Source of the DNA: Caulobacter segnis ATCC 21756
Lineage (GTDB): Bacteria; Pseudomonadota; Alphaproteobacteria; Caulobacterales; Caulobacteraceae
DNA: 64,000 nt
NCBI RefSeq assembly: GCF_000092285.1
Contig: NC_014100.1
Location: forward strand, 4,278,001-4,342,000
Direction: 5' to 3'
The notes beneath the pieces are model-generated. The model searched no databases. It was not told the DNA's origin and saw nothing but the letters and a program-made list of their open reading frames with translations. Positions 1,261 through 33,313 of the stretch are shown here, one piece after another; position 1 is the stretch's first letter; each line of letters opens with the position of its first letter. Made by a program: the position numbers and the translations under genes.

Positions 1261-1341
1261 ATGCAAGTCCGCGCGACCAAAATTACCACCCCGAAAACGA
1301 CCCGCCTCGGCGGGGCGTGGTCGGGCGTGCGCGCGTACTAG
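1261..1341 (+). CDS. Candidate threonine/lysine/isoleucine-rich leader peptide of asd (26 aa)
   Basis: A 26-codon ORF, ATG 1261 to TAG 1339-1341, lies 98 bp upstream of asd. Residues 6-14 read TKITTPKTT: five Thr, two Lys and one Ile in nine codons. This mirrors the regulatory run of thrL-type leaders, and aspartate-semialdehyde dehydrogenase makes the shared precursor of Thr, Lys, Met and Ile. No ribosome-binding site precedes the ATG. Instead a possible -35 (TTTACG, 1224-1229) and -10 (TATTGA, 1247-1252, 17-bp spacer) would start the RNA at or next to the A of ATG, so the leader may be leaderless, as S. meliloti trpL is known to be. This call rests on sequence logic only. Confidence 0.55.
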   Translation: MQVRATKITTPKTTRLGGAWSGVRAY

Positions 1342-1403: not shown

Positions 1404-2483
<1,080 letters not shown>

Positions 2484-28078: not shown

Positions 28079-28509
28079 GGCCATCTCCCGAAGCCTCCCA
28101 AACGCGAGGCAGGATGGCCCGAGATTCTTCCGCGCGCGCTGCGGCCCGACGACGCAGCAGGACGCCAGATCGCGGGCGCGATATTTTTGACGAAGATGTA
28201 AAAAATAGAAACAGGGGCCCAGATACACCAAACCCGTCGCGGGGGATAATCGCGACGGGCTGGCTATTTTCTCGATCATTCGATCTAGGCGGGCGTTTCC
28301 TCCCCGAAACGCCGAAGAACGGGAGCTCTCTGTTGGGCTCGTTTCGTCCTTGCAGTGTGTAGAAACGTCAAATTCGTGACGCTGTCAACGCGTCAAAGCC
28401 GTTTTCTGCAACGGTTTGGACGAATTTTTGACGCGGGTGGCGTAGTTTGGACTGAAAAGTCGGTTTTACCCCTGGATTCCGGCGTTATTTTTGACGAGAA
28501 TGTCAAAAC
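28079..28509. other. 431-bp intergenic region with ATTTTTGACG repeats and hairpins
   Basis: No gene is seen. The decamer ATTTTTGACG occurs exactly three times (28183-28192, 28424-28433, 28487-28496). The first and third are halves of dyads of the form TTTTGAC-N6-GTMAAAA. Further GTCAA/TTGAC half-sites occur at 28366-28398. Two stable hairpins are present: CCCGTCGCG/CGCGACGGG (28233-28259, 9-nt loop) and GGCGTTTC/GAAACGCC (28292-28313). The region separates the 3' end of hisG from the promoter side of the 51-residue protein. Confidence 0.6.
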
Positions 28510-29471
28510 TTACTTTCCAAGCGTCGCCACGAAACGGTCCAGCACGGCCGAACGCGACTCGAAGACATAGTCCGGACGCGACACGGTCACCGGCTCGACC
28601 CCGGCCTCGGCCAGGGCGGCGGCGGCGTCGAACAGGTCGGCGGTCGCCAGGAGCGCGCCGTTGGCGCGGCGCGAACCGCCCTTGGCGACGAAGCCGGCCA
28701 CGGCGTCCTGGGCGGCGCGGTCCTGCTCGGCCGGCCAGACCAGGGTCGCCAGCTTGCCCGCCCGGCCCTTGGCCTCGACCACCGACAAGAGGCGGCGCAG
28801 GGCGTCCAGCTGCTCGCCGTTCCAGCCGGCCAGCCGCGAGGCCGTCAGCTGGGCCTGGCTCTTCAGGATTACGCCGTCGGACAGGATCTTCAGGCCATTG
28901 GCGGCCAGGGTCGCGCCCGTGGTGGTGATGTCGACGACCAGCTCGGCCGCGCCGGCGGCGGGAGCGCCTTCGGTCGCGCCGCTGCTCTCGACGATCCGGT
29001 AGTCGGCGACGCCGTGGCGGGCGAAGAAGGCGCGGGTCTGGGTCACGTACTTGGTCGCCACGCGCAGGCGCCGGCCGGTGCGGGCCAGATGCGCGTGCCC
29101 GACCTCGTCGACGTCGGCCATGGTGTCGACGTCGAGCCAGCTCTTGGGCGCGGTCACCACCAGGTCGGCGCGGCCAAAGCCCAGCGCCCGCAGCAGCATG
29201 ACACGCGGCTGTCCATGTCGTCGCCGCGCTCGCGCAGCAGATCTTCGCCGGTGACGCCCAGGTGCAGGTCGCCGCTGTCGAGGCCCGCGGCGATGTCGCC
29301 GGCCGAGAGTAGGCGCACCGAGACGCCGGGCAGGCCCGACAGCTCGGCCGAATAGCCGCGCGCCCCGCCGGTCATCTCCAGCTTGAAGCCGCACTCGGCC
29401 AGCCAGGCCTCGACCTGGTCCTTCAGGCGGCCCTTGGACGGGATGGCGAAGATCATCGGAGCAGACGTCAT
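28510..29471 (-). pseudogene. hisG: hisG, ATP phosphoribosyltransferase, interrupted by a 2-bp frameshift
   Basis: HisG makes phosphoribosyl-ATP, the first step of histidine synthesis. The frame from ATG 29471 encodes the N-terminus ('IFAIPSKGRLKDQVEAWLAECGF', 'LGVTGEDLLRERGDDMDSRV') and then leaves the family. The continuation ('VMLLRALGFGRADLVVTAPKSWLDVDTMADV' ... 'DITTTGATLAANGLKIL') is in another frame down to the TAA at 28510. On the plus strand GACACGCGG (from 29200) appears where GACGCGG would keep the frame, so a duplicated AC (29201-29204) explains the break. Total length is 962 bp (320 codons plus 2). It could be a real mutation or a sequencing error. The ATG overlaps the hisZ stop by 4 bp. 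Confidence 0.85.
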
Positions 29472-30610
29472 TCGCCGCCTCCCGCATAGGCGCGCGCGGG
29501 ACGGACCATGAAGCCGACCGCGCCGGTGTTGATGGTGGAGACGCCGAGGCGCCCCGGCAGGCCGTCATAGCGACCGCCGGCGGCGATCGGCCGCTCGTCG
29601 CTTAAGGCCGCCGAACGGACCTCGAACAGGTAGCCGTCGTAATAGCCGAACGCCCGGCCGAAGGCGGCGGCCAGGGTCGCGCGCTCCAGCGGCACGCCCT
29701 GGGCGGCCATGCCGGAAAGACGCGCGCGCCAGCCGGCGACGGCGGCCTTCAGCGCGGCGTCGTTCGGGCCCGCCAGGGACGCGATGGCGTCGAGCGCGGC
29801 CTCCGGACGATCCGACACCGCCAGGAAGGCGCGGACCTTGGCGGCTTGATCCGCATCGAGACGGCCGGCCTTGGCGGTCTCGGCCTTTTCGACGAGGCGG
29901 CGAGCGATCTCGGCCGGGCGGCGGCCGCCGACGGGCTCGATGCCGGCCAGGGACCACAGCTCCTGCAGCACGGCGGAGGCCTCGGCCTCGGGCAGGCCGG
30001 CCAGCAGGGCGGCGATGCGGCTTTTTTCCTCGTCCGCGGCCAGTCCGCGCTCAGACGAACCGTCCAGCTCGGCCTTCAGCTGGCGCGGCTTGGCGAAGGC
30101 GCGCTTCAGGCGGGCCGCCAGCGGCGCGGCCAGGTCGAGACTGTCGACGAAGGCCGCGAACAGCGACACGTCGCCCAGCACCAGCGAGAGGTCCCCCCGC
30201 CCGCCGGCCGCCGAGGCCGCCCAGGCCAGGGCCGCCATCTCGGCGTCGGCGGCGACGGGATCGCCGGCCTCGAAGGCCTCGATCCCGATCTGCAGGAACT
30301 CCTCGGCGCGGTCCGAGCCGCGCGGGGCCACGCGGAAGGCCTTGCCCTCGTAGCGGTAGCGGCCGCTAGCCGCCCCTCCAGAAAAGTGCTGTCGCGCCAC
30401 GGCGACGGTGAAGTCGGGGCGCAGGGCCGCCTCCTCGCCGCCGTCGCCGGAGACGACGAACAGCCGCGAGCGCATGGCCTCGCCGGCGAGGTCCAGCAGC
30501 AACCCTAAGGGCTGCAGCACCGGCGCGTCGGTCGGCGCGGCGCCGGCGGCCAGAAGCGGAGCGCGGATGGCGTCGAGCGCCTCCGCCGGAATGGAACGCT
30601 CGAGCCTCAC
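29468..30610 (-). CDS. hisZ: ATP phosphoribosyltransferase regulatory subunit
   Basis: This is a 380-residue histidyl-tRNA-synthetase paralogue. Motif-2-like 'RYRYEGKAFRVAPRGSDRAEEFLQIGIEAF' and the C-terminal 'IAAGGRYDGLPGRLG' are of HisRS fold, but there is no anticodon-binding domain. HisZ binds short-form HisG, completing the active enzyme and conferring histidine feedback. It is located between hisS (3 bp upstream) and hisG (4-bp overlap) in one operon, which is diagnostic. HisG here also has a C-terminal extension beyond the short form, so how the two subunits share regulation is not obvious. Confidence 0.9.
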   Translation of the reverse strand: MRLERSIPAEALDAIRAPLLAAGAAPTDAPVLQPLGLLLDLAGEAMRSRLFVVSGDGGEEAALRPDFTVAVARQHFSGGAASGRYRYEGKAFRVAPRGSDRAEEFLQIGIEAFEAGDPVAADAEMAALAWAASAAGGRGDLSLVLGDVSLFAAFVDSLDLAAPLAARLKRAFAKPRQLKAELDGSSERGLAADEEKSRIAALLAGLPEAEASAVLQELWSLAGIEPVGGRRPAEIARRLVEKAETAKAGRLDADQAAKVRAFLAVSDRPEAALDAIASLAGPNDAALKAAVAGWRARLSGMAAQGVPLERATLAAAFGRAFGYYDGYLFEVRSAALSDERPIAAGGRYDGLPGRLGVSTINTGAVGFMVRPARAYAGGGE

Positions 30611-30613
30611 GAA

Positions 30614-32104
30614 CTAGCCCCCGATGATCTTGCGAACGGCGTCGACCAACTGGCCGCGCGGAATGGTCTGCTGGCCGGGACGCTCGGCCTTCCAGGCGGC
30701 GTTGTCGGCGACGCCCGAGGCCAGCTCGCGGCCGAGGTCCAAGTCCTTGATCGTCACGGTCCCCGCCGCGATCTCGTCGCCGCCCAGCATGATGGCCGCG
30801 GGCGACAGGCGCCGGTCGGCGTATTTCATCTGCGGCCGCATGCCGGAGGTCCCCAGATAGACCTCGGCCGGAATGCCCGCCGCGCGCAATTCTCCGACCA
30901 CGGAGAAGTATTCCGGCATGTGCGCGTCGTCGAAGGCGATGACCACTACCGGCCCGCGCGCCGCCCCGCCCGGCTCGCGCCCGGCCGCCCGCAACGCCGC
31001 CGCCAGGCGCGACACCCCGAACGAGAAGCCCGTCGCCGGCGTCACATTGCCGGTGAACCGCGCCACCAGGTCGTCATAGCGCCCGCCGCCGCCGATCGAG
31101 CCGAAGGTGACCTTGTTACCCTTCTCGTCGGTGGTGGAGAGCAGCAGTTCGGCCTCGAACACCGCGCCGGTGTAGTATTCCAGCCCCCGGACGATCGACG
31201 GATCGATGAAGGCCTGGTCGTCGGCGATGCCCAGGCTGGTCAGGGCCGCGTCGATCCGCGACAGTTCCAAGAGGCCCTCGTCGCCCTCGGCCGAGCCGCC
31301 GATGACCTTGGCGATGTTGTCCAGCGTCGCCGAACGCCCGCCAGAGGAGCCGGCCTGGACGAAGTCCAGCACCTGGTCGACCGCCTGACCTTTGAGGCCC
31401 GCGCCCTTGGTGAAGTCGCCGCTCTCGTCCAGGCGGCCTTCGCCCAGCAGCAGCCGGACGCCGTCGACGCCCAGGCGGTCCAGCTTGTCGACCGCGCGCA
31501 GCACGGCCAGCTTCTGGCCGGCGCTGTCGGCGCCCGCGGCGGTCAGCAGGCCGTTCAGCAGCTTGCGATTGTTGATCTTCAGCACCGCCGCCCCGCGCGG
31601 CAGGCCCGCGGCCTCCAGGCCCTCGACGGCCATGGCGATGATCTCGGCGTCGGCCTCCGGACGGGCCGAGCCCACCGTGTCGGCGTCGCACTGGATGAAC
31701 TGGCGGAAGCGCCCCGGCCCCGGCTTCTCGTTGCGCCACACCGGCCCGAAGGCGTAGCGGCGGAACGGCTTGGGCAGGGTCTCCCAGTTCTGGGCGGCGA
31801 ACCGGGCCAGCGGCGCGGTCAGGTCGTAGCGCAGCGCCATCCACTGGTCGTCGTCGTCCTGCAGCGCGAAGACGCCCTCGTTGGGCCGGTCACTGTCGGG
31901 CAGGAACTTGCCCAGGGCGTCGGCGTATTCGAACGCCCCGGTGTCCAGCGCCTCGAAGCCGTAGCGCTCATAGACCGCCGACACCGCCTCCAGGATCGCC
32001 CGCTCGGCCCGCAGGTCGCGCGCGCGCTTGTCGGCGAAGCCGCGCGGGCTGCGCGCCTCGGGGCGGAAGTCTTGCGGGGTGTTGGTTTCGGAGTCGGTGG
32101 TCAT
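30614..32104 (-). CDS. hisS: Histidyl-tRNA synthetase
   Basis: This is a 496-residue class II aminoacyl-tRNA synthetase charging tRNA-His. Visible features: 'YGFEALDTGAFEYADALGKFLPDSD', motif 2 'FRRYAFGPVWRNEKPGPGRFRQFIQCDAD', the HisA-type stretch 'DPSIVRGLEYYTGAVFE', motif 3 'GFSFGVSRLAAALR', and a C-terminal anticodon-binding domain ('VVVIAFDDAHMPEYFSVVGELRAAGIPAEVYLG'). AAGGA lies about 10 nt before ATG 32104. It is the first structural gene of hisS-hisZ-hisG and is preceded by the histidine-rich leader peptide. Confidence 0.95.
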   Translation of the reverse strand: MTTDSETNTPQDFRPEARSPRGFADKRARDLRAERAILEAVSAVYERYGFEALDTGAFEYADALGKFLPDSDRPNEGVFALQDDDDQWMALRYDLTAPLARFAAQNWETLPKPFRRYAFGPVWRNEKPGPGRFRQFIQCDADTVGSARPEADAEIIAMAVEGLEAAGLPRGAAVLKINNRKLLNGLLTAAGADSAGQKLAVLRAVDKLDRLGVDGVRLLLGEGRLDESGDFTKGAGLKGQAVDQVLDFVQAGSSGGRSATLDNIAKVIGGSAEGDEGLLELSRIDAALTSLGIADDQAFIDPSIVRGLEYYTGAVFEAELLLSTTDEKGNKVTFGSIGGGGRYDDLVARFTGNVTPATGFSFGVSRLAAALRAAGREPGGAARGPVVVIAFDDAHMPEYFSVVGELRAAGIPAEVYLGTSGMRPQMKYADRRLSPAAIMLGGDEIAAGTVTIKDLDLGRELASGVADNAAWKAERPGQQTIPRGQLVDAVRKIIGG

Positions 32105-32133
32105 CGTCGGTCCTTAGAACTTCAAGGCTTCGA

Positions 32134-32190
32134 CGGATGGCGCTTTGGCTCAAGCCCCATCCGCTAGGCGGGGCTCAGGCTGGGGGCTTG
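32134..32190 (-). promoter_or_regulatory. Putative attenuator structures between the His leader and hisS
   Basis: In RNA order the segments are CAAGCCCC (32190-32183), GAGCCCC (32176-32170), GGGGCTTG (32158-32151) and CCATCCG (32140-32134). GGGGCTTG pairs perfectly with the first and, with one G-U, with the second. The CGGATGG (32163-32157) overlapping it can pair either with CCATCCG inside the leader's His codons (32239-32233) or with the CCATCCG nearest hisS. These pairings exclude each other, as expected of an attenuator. There is no U-tract, so control could be Rho-dependent or at hisS translation. Confidence 0.55.
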
Positions 32191-32193
32191 CTT

Positions 32194-32274
32194 TTAGAGC
32201 GAGCGGACCCGGCCGATCCCGCGAGGCGAGGTCGGATGGTGGTGGTGGCCGTGATGGTGCGGCGTGCGGGTCAT
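32194..32274 (-). CDS. hisL: Histidine leader peptide (26 aa, seven His codons)
   Basis: The ORF runs from ATG 32274 to TAA 32194. Residues 6-13 read HHHGHHHH: seven histidines in eight codons, in a 26-residue peptide 89 bp ahead of hisS. A run like this directly upstream of a histidine operon is the classical sign of ribosome-mediated attenuation. There is no ribosome-binding site. Instead CTACAC/TACACC lies about 8-9 nt before the ATG, where a -10 element would stand if the transcript began at the ATG, so it may be leaderless like the candidate asd leader. Confidence 0.8.
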   Translation of the reverse strand: MTRTPHHHGHHHHPTSPRGIGRVRSL

Positions 32275-32362
32275 TGCGGGGGCGGTGTAGCGGATGGCGG
32301 GGGTGAGGGGAAGGGGGGAGGGCAACAGACGCTTGGAACACGCCCTTCGACAAAATTACAAT

Positions 32363-33313
32363 TCAGACCACATCGGGATCTATAGCAGCATCCTCCAAGC
32401 CCAAAAGTGTAAAGCTCTCGCGAACAAGACCGCCATCTTTTAGAACTTTTCGCACCCTGAAACGACCTACCGATCGCCTCTCCATCCACTCTCTATTTAG
32501 ATCAACAATTGCTGCTGAGCTGTATGAGCGATCAACACGACCCCTTATTATTCCTCGAGGCCCATCAGTTCTGAATTCCATTTGATGGCCTTCAGGGAGA
32601 GCGACGGAGAAAACGCCCTCAATTCGCTCTTCTTCATCGCCAACACTGGTAGTGGTCGCGCGGTCATCGGCACGCGCTATCGCAAGTGCTGATAGAGATC
32701 GATCCTTGCCGCCGCTCACGAGCCGGAATGTTGCACCAGATTGATACATGTGTTCAAAAAATACTTTCGCAGTTGATAGAACCCGCTCATCAACTTCAGA
32801 AACAATTGCCTGGAACCTCTCCTCATCGTCCTCGCCAAAGGCAGCTATAAGATCAGAAACGTGATCCACGCTTTCTTTCAAAGTGGAGTCTATAAGAGAG
32901 GATTGACCATCAATTTCCTCAAGTACAAATCCAAAAGATCCGCGCACAACATCAGTTATGTGCAACCGCGCAGCCGCCTTGTTTGGAACAACACCTCTTT
33001 GCCCCAAGCCACCATTTTCATGGGCCAATTGCTTGGCAACCAAATCTTGAAAGATTGAGACAGCCCGCGCCCCGAATTCGCTCTCAATTCCGCGATTTCC
33101 AATCACCGGCGCGCCGCCAAAGAAGAGCGCTGCTGAAGCTAACTCGCCCCCCGTTTGACCAAGACTCTCTAGCTCGACGCGAAGCTCCATCAGTCGATCT
33201 TCAAGACCGATGCGCATAACAACATCACGATCGCCCAGCTCTCCGAGCATGCGATTTAGCGAAGCGGACTCTGCTTCGAGTCGATCGCGCTCAAGCTTTT
33301 TGAGCGCACTCAT
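32363..33313 (-). CDS. Unknown 316-residue protein, partner of a DUF6932-type nucleotidyltransferase
   Basis: I do not recognise this family. The first about 55 residues are heptad-like and highly charged ('ALKKLERDRLEAESASLNRMLGELGDRDVVMRIGLEDRLMELRVELESLG'), probably a coiled coil. The middle and end are mixed alpha/beta with no membrane segment or signal peptide; the C-terminus has beta-rich stretches ('GIIRGRVDRSYSSAAIVDLN'). Base composition is clearly lower in GC than its neighbours, with many A/T third positions, suggesting transfer. The start ATG overlaps the stop of the upstream gene by 4 bp (ATGA), so the two proteins are made together. A toxin-antitoxin or defence role is possible but only inferred. 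Confidence 0.8.
   Translation of the reverse strand: MSALKKLERDRLEAESASLNRMLGELGDRDVVMRIGLEDRLMELRVELESLGQTGGELASAALFFGGAPVIGNRGIESEFGARAVSIFQDLVAKQLAHENGGLGQRGVVPNKAAARLHITDVVRGSFGFVLEEIDGQSSLIDSTLKESVDHVSDLIAAFGEDDEERFQAIVSEVDERVLSTAKVFFEHMYQSGATFRLVSGGKDRSLSALAIARADDRATTTSVGDEEERIEGVFSVALPEGHQMEFRTDGPRGIIRGRVDRSYSSAAIVDLNREWMERRSVGRFRVRKVLKDGGLVRESFTLLGLEDAAIDPDVV

Follow-up and report, generated by a model that had tools for sequence, protein, structure and literature searches.

A conserved histidine leader with mutually exclusive RNA stems precedes hisS in Caulobacteraceae and probably acts on translation initiation

Introduction

Two textbook systems frame the locus described here: the enteric his attenuator and translation control of the ermC type. 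The attenuator of the enterobacterial his operon is represented by the RNA family RF00514 (His_leader). Leader peptides of related kinds are described for several other lineages. The actinobacterial LEU element of leuA combines a leader peptide, regulatory codons and an SD box in a paired structure (PMC1262725). The Bacillus genes hisS*/hisZ have a leader with His codons, found through premature terminators (PMC2965389). In Sinorhizobium, SEP5 is a sORF with Thr/Lys codons in the 5' UTR of an "aspartate dehydrogenase" gene, and its translation was shown (PMC10117765). Caulobacter crescentus has a leader CDS for trpS as well as ilv attenuation (PMC4117421). The literature that we searched, mostly non-subscription, contains no description of a hisS leader or of an alphaproteobacterial thrS leader; an earlier prediction may exist.

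Here, we analyzed a stretch of 64,000 nucleotides from Caulobacter segnis ATCC 21756 (NC_014100.1), hereafter the window. A preliminary description of this window, made from the letters alone, had proposed a histidine leader peptide and alternative RNA stems upstream of hisS-hisZ-hisG. We compared the locus across the family and the class, and asked on which strand and at which step it would act. The features are collected in Table 1.

Table 1. Features of the window discussed in the text, by position.
Feature	Positions	Strand	Basis or remark
Thr/Lys/Ile leader MQVRATKITTPKTTRLGGAWSGVRAY before asd	1261..1341	+	covariance model R1 match 1261-1458, 27.4 bits
asd	1440..2483	+	NF011456, 477.7 bits
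hisG region, two reading frames in this assembly	28510..29471	-	TIGR00070
hisZ, 3 nt after hisS	29468..30610	-	NF008949, 720.2 bits (cutoff 420)
hisS, histidyl-tRNA synthetase, putative regulated gene	30614..32104	-	TIGR00442, 381.2 bits (cutoff 286.75)
Segment F: hisS SD AAGGA (32115-32111) and start codon (32104-32102), in E:F	32102..32116	-	alignment
Segment E (D:E arm); 32139-32123 is the E:F arm	32134..32145	-	alignment
Segment D (C:D with 32175-32168; D:E with 32145-32134)	32152..32164	-	alignment
CC3513 sRNA model match RF01528, opposite the leader	32159..32330	+	133.4 bits
Segment C (B:C; arm 32175-32168 also C:D)	32168..32184	-	alignment
His leader peptide ORF MTRTPHHHGHHHHPTSPRGIGRVRSL	32194..32274	-	26 codons; like leaders before hisS in family regions
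Segment B, end of leader ORF, pairs with C	32208..32222	-	alignment
Segment A, partner of B in close relatives, little conservation in other leaders	32226..32235	-	A:B paired in 63.1% of cells
Regulatory codon run, His codons 6-8 and 10-13	32236..32259	-	ORF translation
Promoter candidate: TTCCCC (32312-32307), 17-nt spacer, TACACC (32289-32284)	32284..32312	-	read from sequence

Results

A histidine-rich leader ORF precedes hisS, hisZ and hisG

We recovered the 26-codon His ORF of the preliminary description on the minus strand, and the gene order that it gave: hisS and hisZ were identified by profile, and hisG is present, in two frames. Among the window's ORFs of 12-45 aa, MTRTPHHHGHHHHPTSPRGIGRVRSL is the only one that has five or more His in eight codons, and 40 Markov-1 random windows of similar dinucleotide make-up contained none. 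Its His-codon pattern, CAYCAYCAYNNNCAYCAYCAY, occurs a single time in the 4,655,622-base (4.66-Mb) single-contig genome. The N-terminal piece of hisG (29154-29471) and its C-terminal piece give separate TIGR00070 matches in differing frames. These halves share one frame in a close relative (L283), and the break here is either a sequencing error or a real mutation. Directly downstream of hisG lies the CrfA sRNA (RF01527, 159.5 bits, 28218-28353, minus strand).

Both hisZ and hisG follow hisS in 10 of the 11 leader-bearing regions that were checked (window excluded) and in 5 of 9 leaderless regions. A hisS leader that couples tRNA charging with biosynthesis, as had been suggested, fits this gene order, provided that the leader does respond to histidine.

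The leader is conserved in a large part of the sampled Caulobacteraceae

We located HisS in 293 of 299 Caulobacteraceae genomes and took 121 upstream regions (window included) among the best HisS matches listed, plus 20 from other places. A leader was scored when an ORF of 18-30 codons had at least three His in residues 5-15. By this measure, a similar His leader lies before hisS in 103 of these 141 family regions (101/121 and 2/20), a proportion that is no family-wide rate because close relatives are over-represented among the best matches. The remaining 20 regions of the first set and 18 of the second lack such an ORF; the latter include four regions of genus g3 and four of genus g15. One locus of the window's own genus (L033) has lost the promoter and the first half of the ORF and retains segments C to F. 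Outside the family, none of 20 regions (19 genomes) has this leader. One of them (L189, positions 293-477), in an alphaproteobacterial genome of 1.2 Mb, has a His leader of another type, MKNIVLNHTHHHTHAKHGLGN. Next come a tRNA-His gene (401-477) and then hisS, so that the leader peptide stands ahead of a tRNA gene.

Alignment in Caulobacterales had been proposed as a check of His-codon conservation. Within the family, it supports that conservation: the His run is the constant feature of the peptide and the other residues vary. A short ORF rich in the amino acid of the pathway, kept before the genes of that pathway, is what one expects of an amino-acid leader-peptide attenuator, and this locus has it.

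The leader transcript probably starts at or near the leader AUG

A -10-like motif, CTANR, stands 13-17 nt upstream of the leader start codon in 99 of 103 leaders. Counted within -20 to -10, it accompanies 96/103 leader starts vs 23/543 other ATGs of the same regions. This motif, missing from the inventory of the preliminary description, and the window's TTCCCC and TACACC look like -10/-35 elements. The candidate was not listed by a scan for consensus promoters, the consensus being of the E. coli type. No SD is visible before the leader ORF in the window, as had been noted before, and an SD-like AGGA, GGAG or GAGG precedes the ORF in 3 of the 103 leaders. The transcript is thus probably leaderless or nearly so, starting at or just before the leader AUG, which would account for an ORF without SD. 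With 375 leaderless mRNAs reported, such initiation is common in C. crescentus (PMC4117421).

Alternative stems are conserved and covary

We aligned the leaders and found a conserved scheme of six segments, in which B:C and D:E stand against C:D and E:F (with A:B in addition to the latter two). Removal of near-identical sequences from the 103 left 67 leaders, of which 56 make up alignment A1. We took out the other 11 on visual inspection, ahead of any counting (L042 and L071 because of insertions, and the divergent L079, L092, L101, L103, L106, L109, L111, L141 and L145), which may favour the structure. In A1, the B:C helices are paired in 73.9, 59.4 and 89.3% of cells, those of C:D in 97.9% and 93.8%, and D:E in 91.3%. 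Taken as sets over the 56 leaders, B:C+D:E is paired in 80.7% of cells vs 39.0-52.4% when slid, and A:B+C:D+E:F in 79.2% vs 32.3-46.7%. Cells with a double change number 55 for the first set vs 29.6 in shuffles and 60 for the second vs 37.9, values matched in neither case by any of 500 shuffles. The number of pairs with a double change was reached by 5/500 shuffles for B:C+D:E and by 118/500 for A:B+C:D+E:F; further pair types were near chance (163/500 and 185/500, respectively).

The clearest compensation concerns a D:E pair that is U-A in 34 and C-G in 19 of the 56 leaders: where D has C for U, E changes from A to G in 19 of 21 sequences. The same base of E pairs in E:F with the U of the AUG in F, as A-U in 33 and as G-U in 20 leaders. 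A single letter of E is thus used by two stems, and its second pairing works only on the minus strand because there it is G-U and not C-A.

Duplex energies were compared, in each of the 56 leaders, with 200 dinucleotide shuffles. They reached p<=0.05 in 50 leaders for C:D, 54 for D:E, 30 for E:F and 20 for B:C, and lay below the shuffle mean in 56/56 for B:C and 53/56 for E:F. In L077 and L091, E:F is made from other letters (CCAUC..GGU with ACC..GAUGG), with the bulged C of L091 identical to that of the window. L042 and L071 have extra palindrome-rich DNA in the C:D loop, the stem arms being intact.

These results keep part of the pairings first proposed. Of the triple CCATCCG/CGGATGG/CCATCCG, one pairing shows both conservation and compensation, namely that between CGGATGG (32163-32157) and the downstream CCATCCG (32140-32134). 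The copy within the ORF (32239-32233) was rejected as a switch arm, since it follows the change in D in 0/21 sequences vs 19/21 for E. From the second triple, GGGGCT with AGCCCC is paired in 97.9% of cells and survives; CAAGCCCC with GGGGCTTG is weak, at 62.5% of cells, and was discarded. The proposed pairs also omitted both the B:C stem and the E:F stem that would bury the hisS SD and AUG, and E:F (32139-32123 with 32116-32102) takes the element beyond its proposed end at 32113, to 32102. Mutually exclusive stems supported by comparison are the second expected trait of an amino-acid leader-peptide attenuator. Conservation thus lends strong support to a His leader peptide combined with mutually exclusive RNA stems.

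Related leaders are found before asd and thrS

To our covariance model R1, built from A1, 26 of 385 genomes of the class gave matches at E<=0.01, the window's own genome included. The window holds a second match, before asd (Table 1). Its leader has the C:D, D:E and E:F layout of the hisS leader, and its SD AGGAG can pair with an upstream CUCC. Outside the family, the seven best places are L196-L202, six of which begin at the start codon with Thr-rich leaders. These stand before thrS in L196, L201 and L202 (TIGR00418) and before asd in L198, L199 and L200 (NF011456); the seventh, L197, coincides in coordinates with the thrS locus L230, whose leader is MRTHPVLRSTATTTTTATGGRWRMRA. The ThrS of L196, L201 and L202 match TIGR00418 only from position 170 and resemble short paralogs without N-terminal domains. 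Among five R1 matches below 30 bits that we read, two (L271 and L272) have a clear Thr leader and L269 has an Ile/Thr/Lys leader; by our leader test, L268 and L270 have none. Altogether, Thr-rich leaders were seen in other Alphaproteobacteria at L196, L198-L202, L230, L265-L267, L271 and L272, with thrS or asd downstream where this was checked by profile. Where such leaders could be parsed, they have a stem that buries the SD, and a U-rich tail after the inner hairpin is common.

A convincing Thr-rich leader was seen before 1 of the best 30 thrS loci and 3 of the best 30 asd loci of the class. In the window's genome, no Thr leader was found at thrS, and a sORF listed at the second asd is a chance one.

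The conserved E:F stem contains the hisS SD and start codon

The E:F stem contains both AAGGA and the AUG of hisS. An SD and a start codon lying within a conserved alternative stem are what a translational attenuator would show, as judged from the alignment. SDs are present in only 24.6% of C. crescentus CDSs (PMC4117421).

We folded the leaders with a masked ribosome. In the window, a ribosome at the last His codon gives B:C 0.97, D:E 0.93 and E:F 0.27, with the RBS unpaired at 0.44. At the stop codon, the values are 0.74 for C:D, 0.90 for E:F and 0.15 for the unpaired RBS. With the ribosome at the first His codon, the RBS is scarcely more open than at the stop codon (0.19 vs 0.15). The RBS is more open in the stalled state in 41 of 56 leaders. 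When the B region was shuffled as a control, the observed D:E exceeded the shuffle mean in only 25/56 and the RBS opening in 29/56, so that the folding reveals no control by B beyond base composition. In both analyses the stall point of one leader of the 56 is misplaced (L065, with His at the peptide end); the duplex-energy statistics above are corrected. The minimum free energy fold of the window has D:E together with a shortened E:F. We also folded 15 hisS, asd and thrS loci (the window's asd and hisS included), 13 of which had a parsable SD. When folded from E to the AUG, at least three quarters of the SD is paired in 13/13. With D included, it is still mostly paired in 11/13, and half or less only in L201 and L266. 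We thus do not take masked folding as proof of switching: the window agrees with it, and the B shuffles and D-included folds in general do not.

Reading from the first AUG past E gives the hisS frame in 77 of 103 leaders and another ORF in the other 26. Genus g7, probably Phenylobacterium-like, accounts for 15 of these exceptions and the window's genus for 9, including L042 and L071 with their insertions. In some genomes, a second promoter is apparently present directly before hisS, as read from the sequence. In 14 leaders (L087, L093, L097, L104, L120 and others), more than 30 residues separate the hisS start at the AUG after E from the P-[RKH]-G motif, which may point to two HisS isoforms made from two promoters.

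Transcription termination as the alternative output

A classical transcription attenuator is the alternative that survives best. Here C:D (or D:E) would terminate transcription despite a poor U-tract, or Rho would do so when hisS is untranslated, E:F being secondary. The absence of a U-tract, already remarked in the preliminary description, held: we found no terminator-like site at 32000-32500, and the 9 nt after C:D have at most four U in 50 of the 56 hisS leaders. After D:E this is so in 56/56, and D:E was rejected as a terminator. U-tract hairpins do exist elsewhere in the organism: one stands upstream of ilvB and has TTTTTTCTTTT after it; there, a filter for Ile/Leu/Val listed no sORF. Six hisS leaders do have 5-8 U after C:D (L082, L096, L097, L100, L105 and L126), and 5-8 U of 9 follow the homologous C:D in 8 of the 13 parsed loci, a set with thrS and asd loci that includes those of the window (two U at its hisS, four at its asd). 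In addition, in L249, L250 and L255 the Thr/Lys sORF before asd has a hairpin with a clear T-run after it. A terminator may thus act beside SD burial in some lineages. For the hisS leader, the scarcity of U-tracts and the conservation of E:F with the SD inside make termination as the main output rather unlikely. The missing U-tract suggests that the output is probably SD sequestration, instead of or besides a terminator. In our view, the conserved histidine leader switch is real, and the balance of the sequence evidence tips toward translation as the step controlled.

The opposite strand and the peptide itself

The preliminary description had overlooked a match to the CC3513 sRNA (RF01528) on the plus strand. 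This sRNA was reportedly described by Landt in 2008. Among 14 control genomes, RF01528 matches only in Caulobacter vibrioides; among the 299 family genomes, 82 match at E<=0.001 and 58 exceed the cut-off. The plus-strand match may mean that the family was modelled on the wrong strand, or that a genuine antisense RNA exists. Were an RNA antisense to the leader the functional product, this score and these matches would be accounted for, but the His ORF, the promoter-like motif and the SD are all on the minus strand. Strand-neutral pairs (33 pairs at least 60% Watson-Crick) have 50 G-U cells vs 19 A-C cells, numbers that exceed those of independent events because the sequences are related. No G-U excess appears when all 54 pairs are taken, weak helices included (146 G-U vs 156 A-C). 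An earlier count of 62 G-U vs 21 A-C used pairs picked after viewing the data and was replaced by the neutral one. Hence, the counts moderately favour the leader strand, at well-paired positions only, and we regard a functional product of the opposite strand as improbable.

It is more improbable still that function resides in the peptide itself, or in a constitutive E:F structure, with no histidine switch: the C-terminus is nearly invariant across the 42 closest aligned leaders, but that region belongs to B, distant leaders change its letters while B:C keeps its low duplex energy throughout, and constancy of the peptide is limited to the His run.

Discussion

With slightly better than even confidence, we propose for the element the role of a histidine leader-peptide attenuator, acting on hisS, and via hisS also on hisZ-hisG, mainly at translation initiation. 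Transcription would begin at the leader AUG or slightly ahead of it, with a ribosome starting to translate immediately. When charged tRNA-His is scarce, this ribosome would stall in the His run, leaving B unoccupied and able to pair with C. With B:C formed, D would pair with E, F would lose some of its pairing, and hisS would be translated. When histidine is plentiful, the ribosome would reach the stop codon and cover B, and C would pair with D; E, then free, would pair with F and bury the hisS SD and AUG. The response to histidine, the direction of switching, the part played by B, the degree to which D:E opens the SD and the polarity on hisZ-hisG are all predictions of this model.

The leaders before asd and thrS suggest a broader picture, to which we give a little less than even odds. 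In it, the hisS leader would be one member of an alphaproteobacterial class (hisS, thrS, asd and perhaps more) sharing one six-segment scheme with an anti-SD segment E, where stalling is read as SD exposure. The U-tract of the inner hairpin would have been kept or lost by lineage, giving a series from termination to translation.

If this is true, the logic of the textbook his attenuator has been rewired from transcription termination to exposure of the RBS, on transcripts that are probably leaderless. A single histidine sensor would govern both tRNA charging (hisS) and synthesis (hisZ, hisG). The Caulobacter "small RNA" locus of Rfam would gain a likely identity, and sister switches before thrS and asd would be indicated.

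Our best reading is of an enteric-his-like logic wired mainly to translation initiation. As in the enterobacterial his attenuator, the leader ORF carries a His-codon run, the RNA has six alternating segments, and histidine biosynthesis genes are involved. The preliminary description called the locus unlike the enterobacterial case, and we agree: hisS comes first, no SD precedes the leader ORF, the last hairpin holds an SD, and no U-tract intrinsic terminator, as expected of enterobacterial his before the first gene, was found here. The RF00514 model was not reported at 32050-32500 even at E up to 5, where only RF01528 was. In the ermC/cat translational attenuators, a ribosome stalled on the leader makes a sequestered SD accessible, as we propose for hisS; they differ in sensing antibiotics and in having fewer segments.

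Among the described leaders, that of Bacillus is similar in placing His codons before genes of the hisS family, and its description reports no similarity between the leaders of Firmicutes and those of proteobacteria (PMC2965389). In the LEU element, it is the Leu codons that pair with the SD, and a pseudoknot was proposed (PMC1262725), whereas here a separate segment, E, would do the pairing. The description of SEP5, as far as its accessible text goes, has no RNA switch (PMC10117765); the SEP5 leader may belong with the asd leaders that we found.
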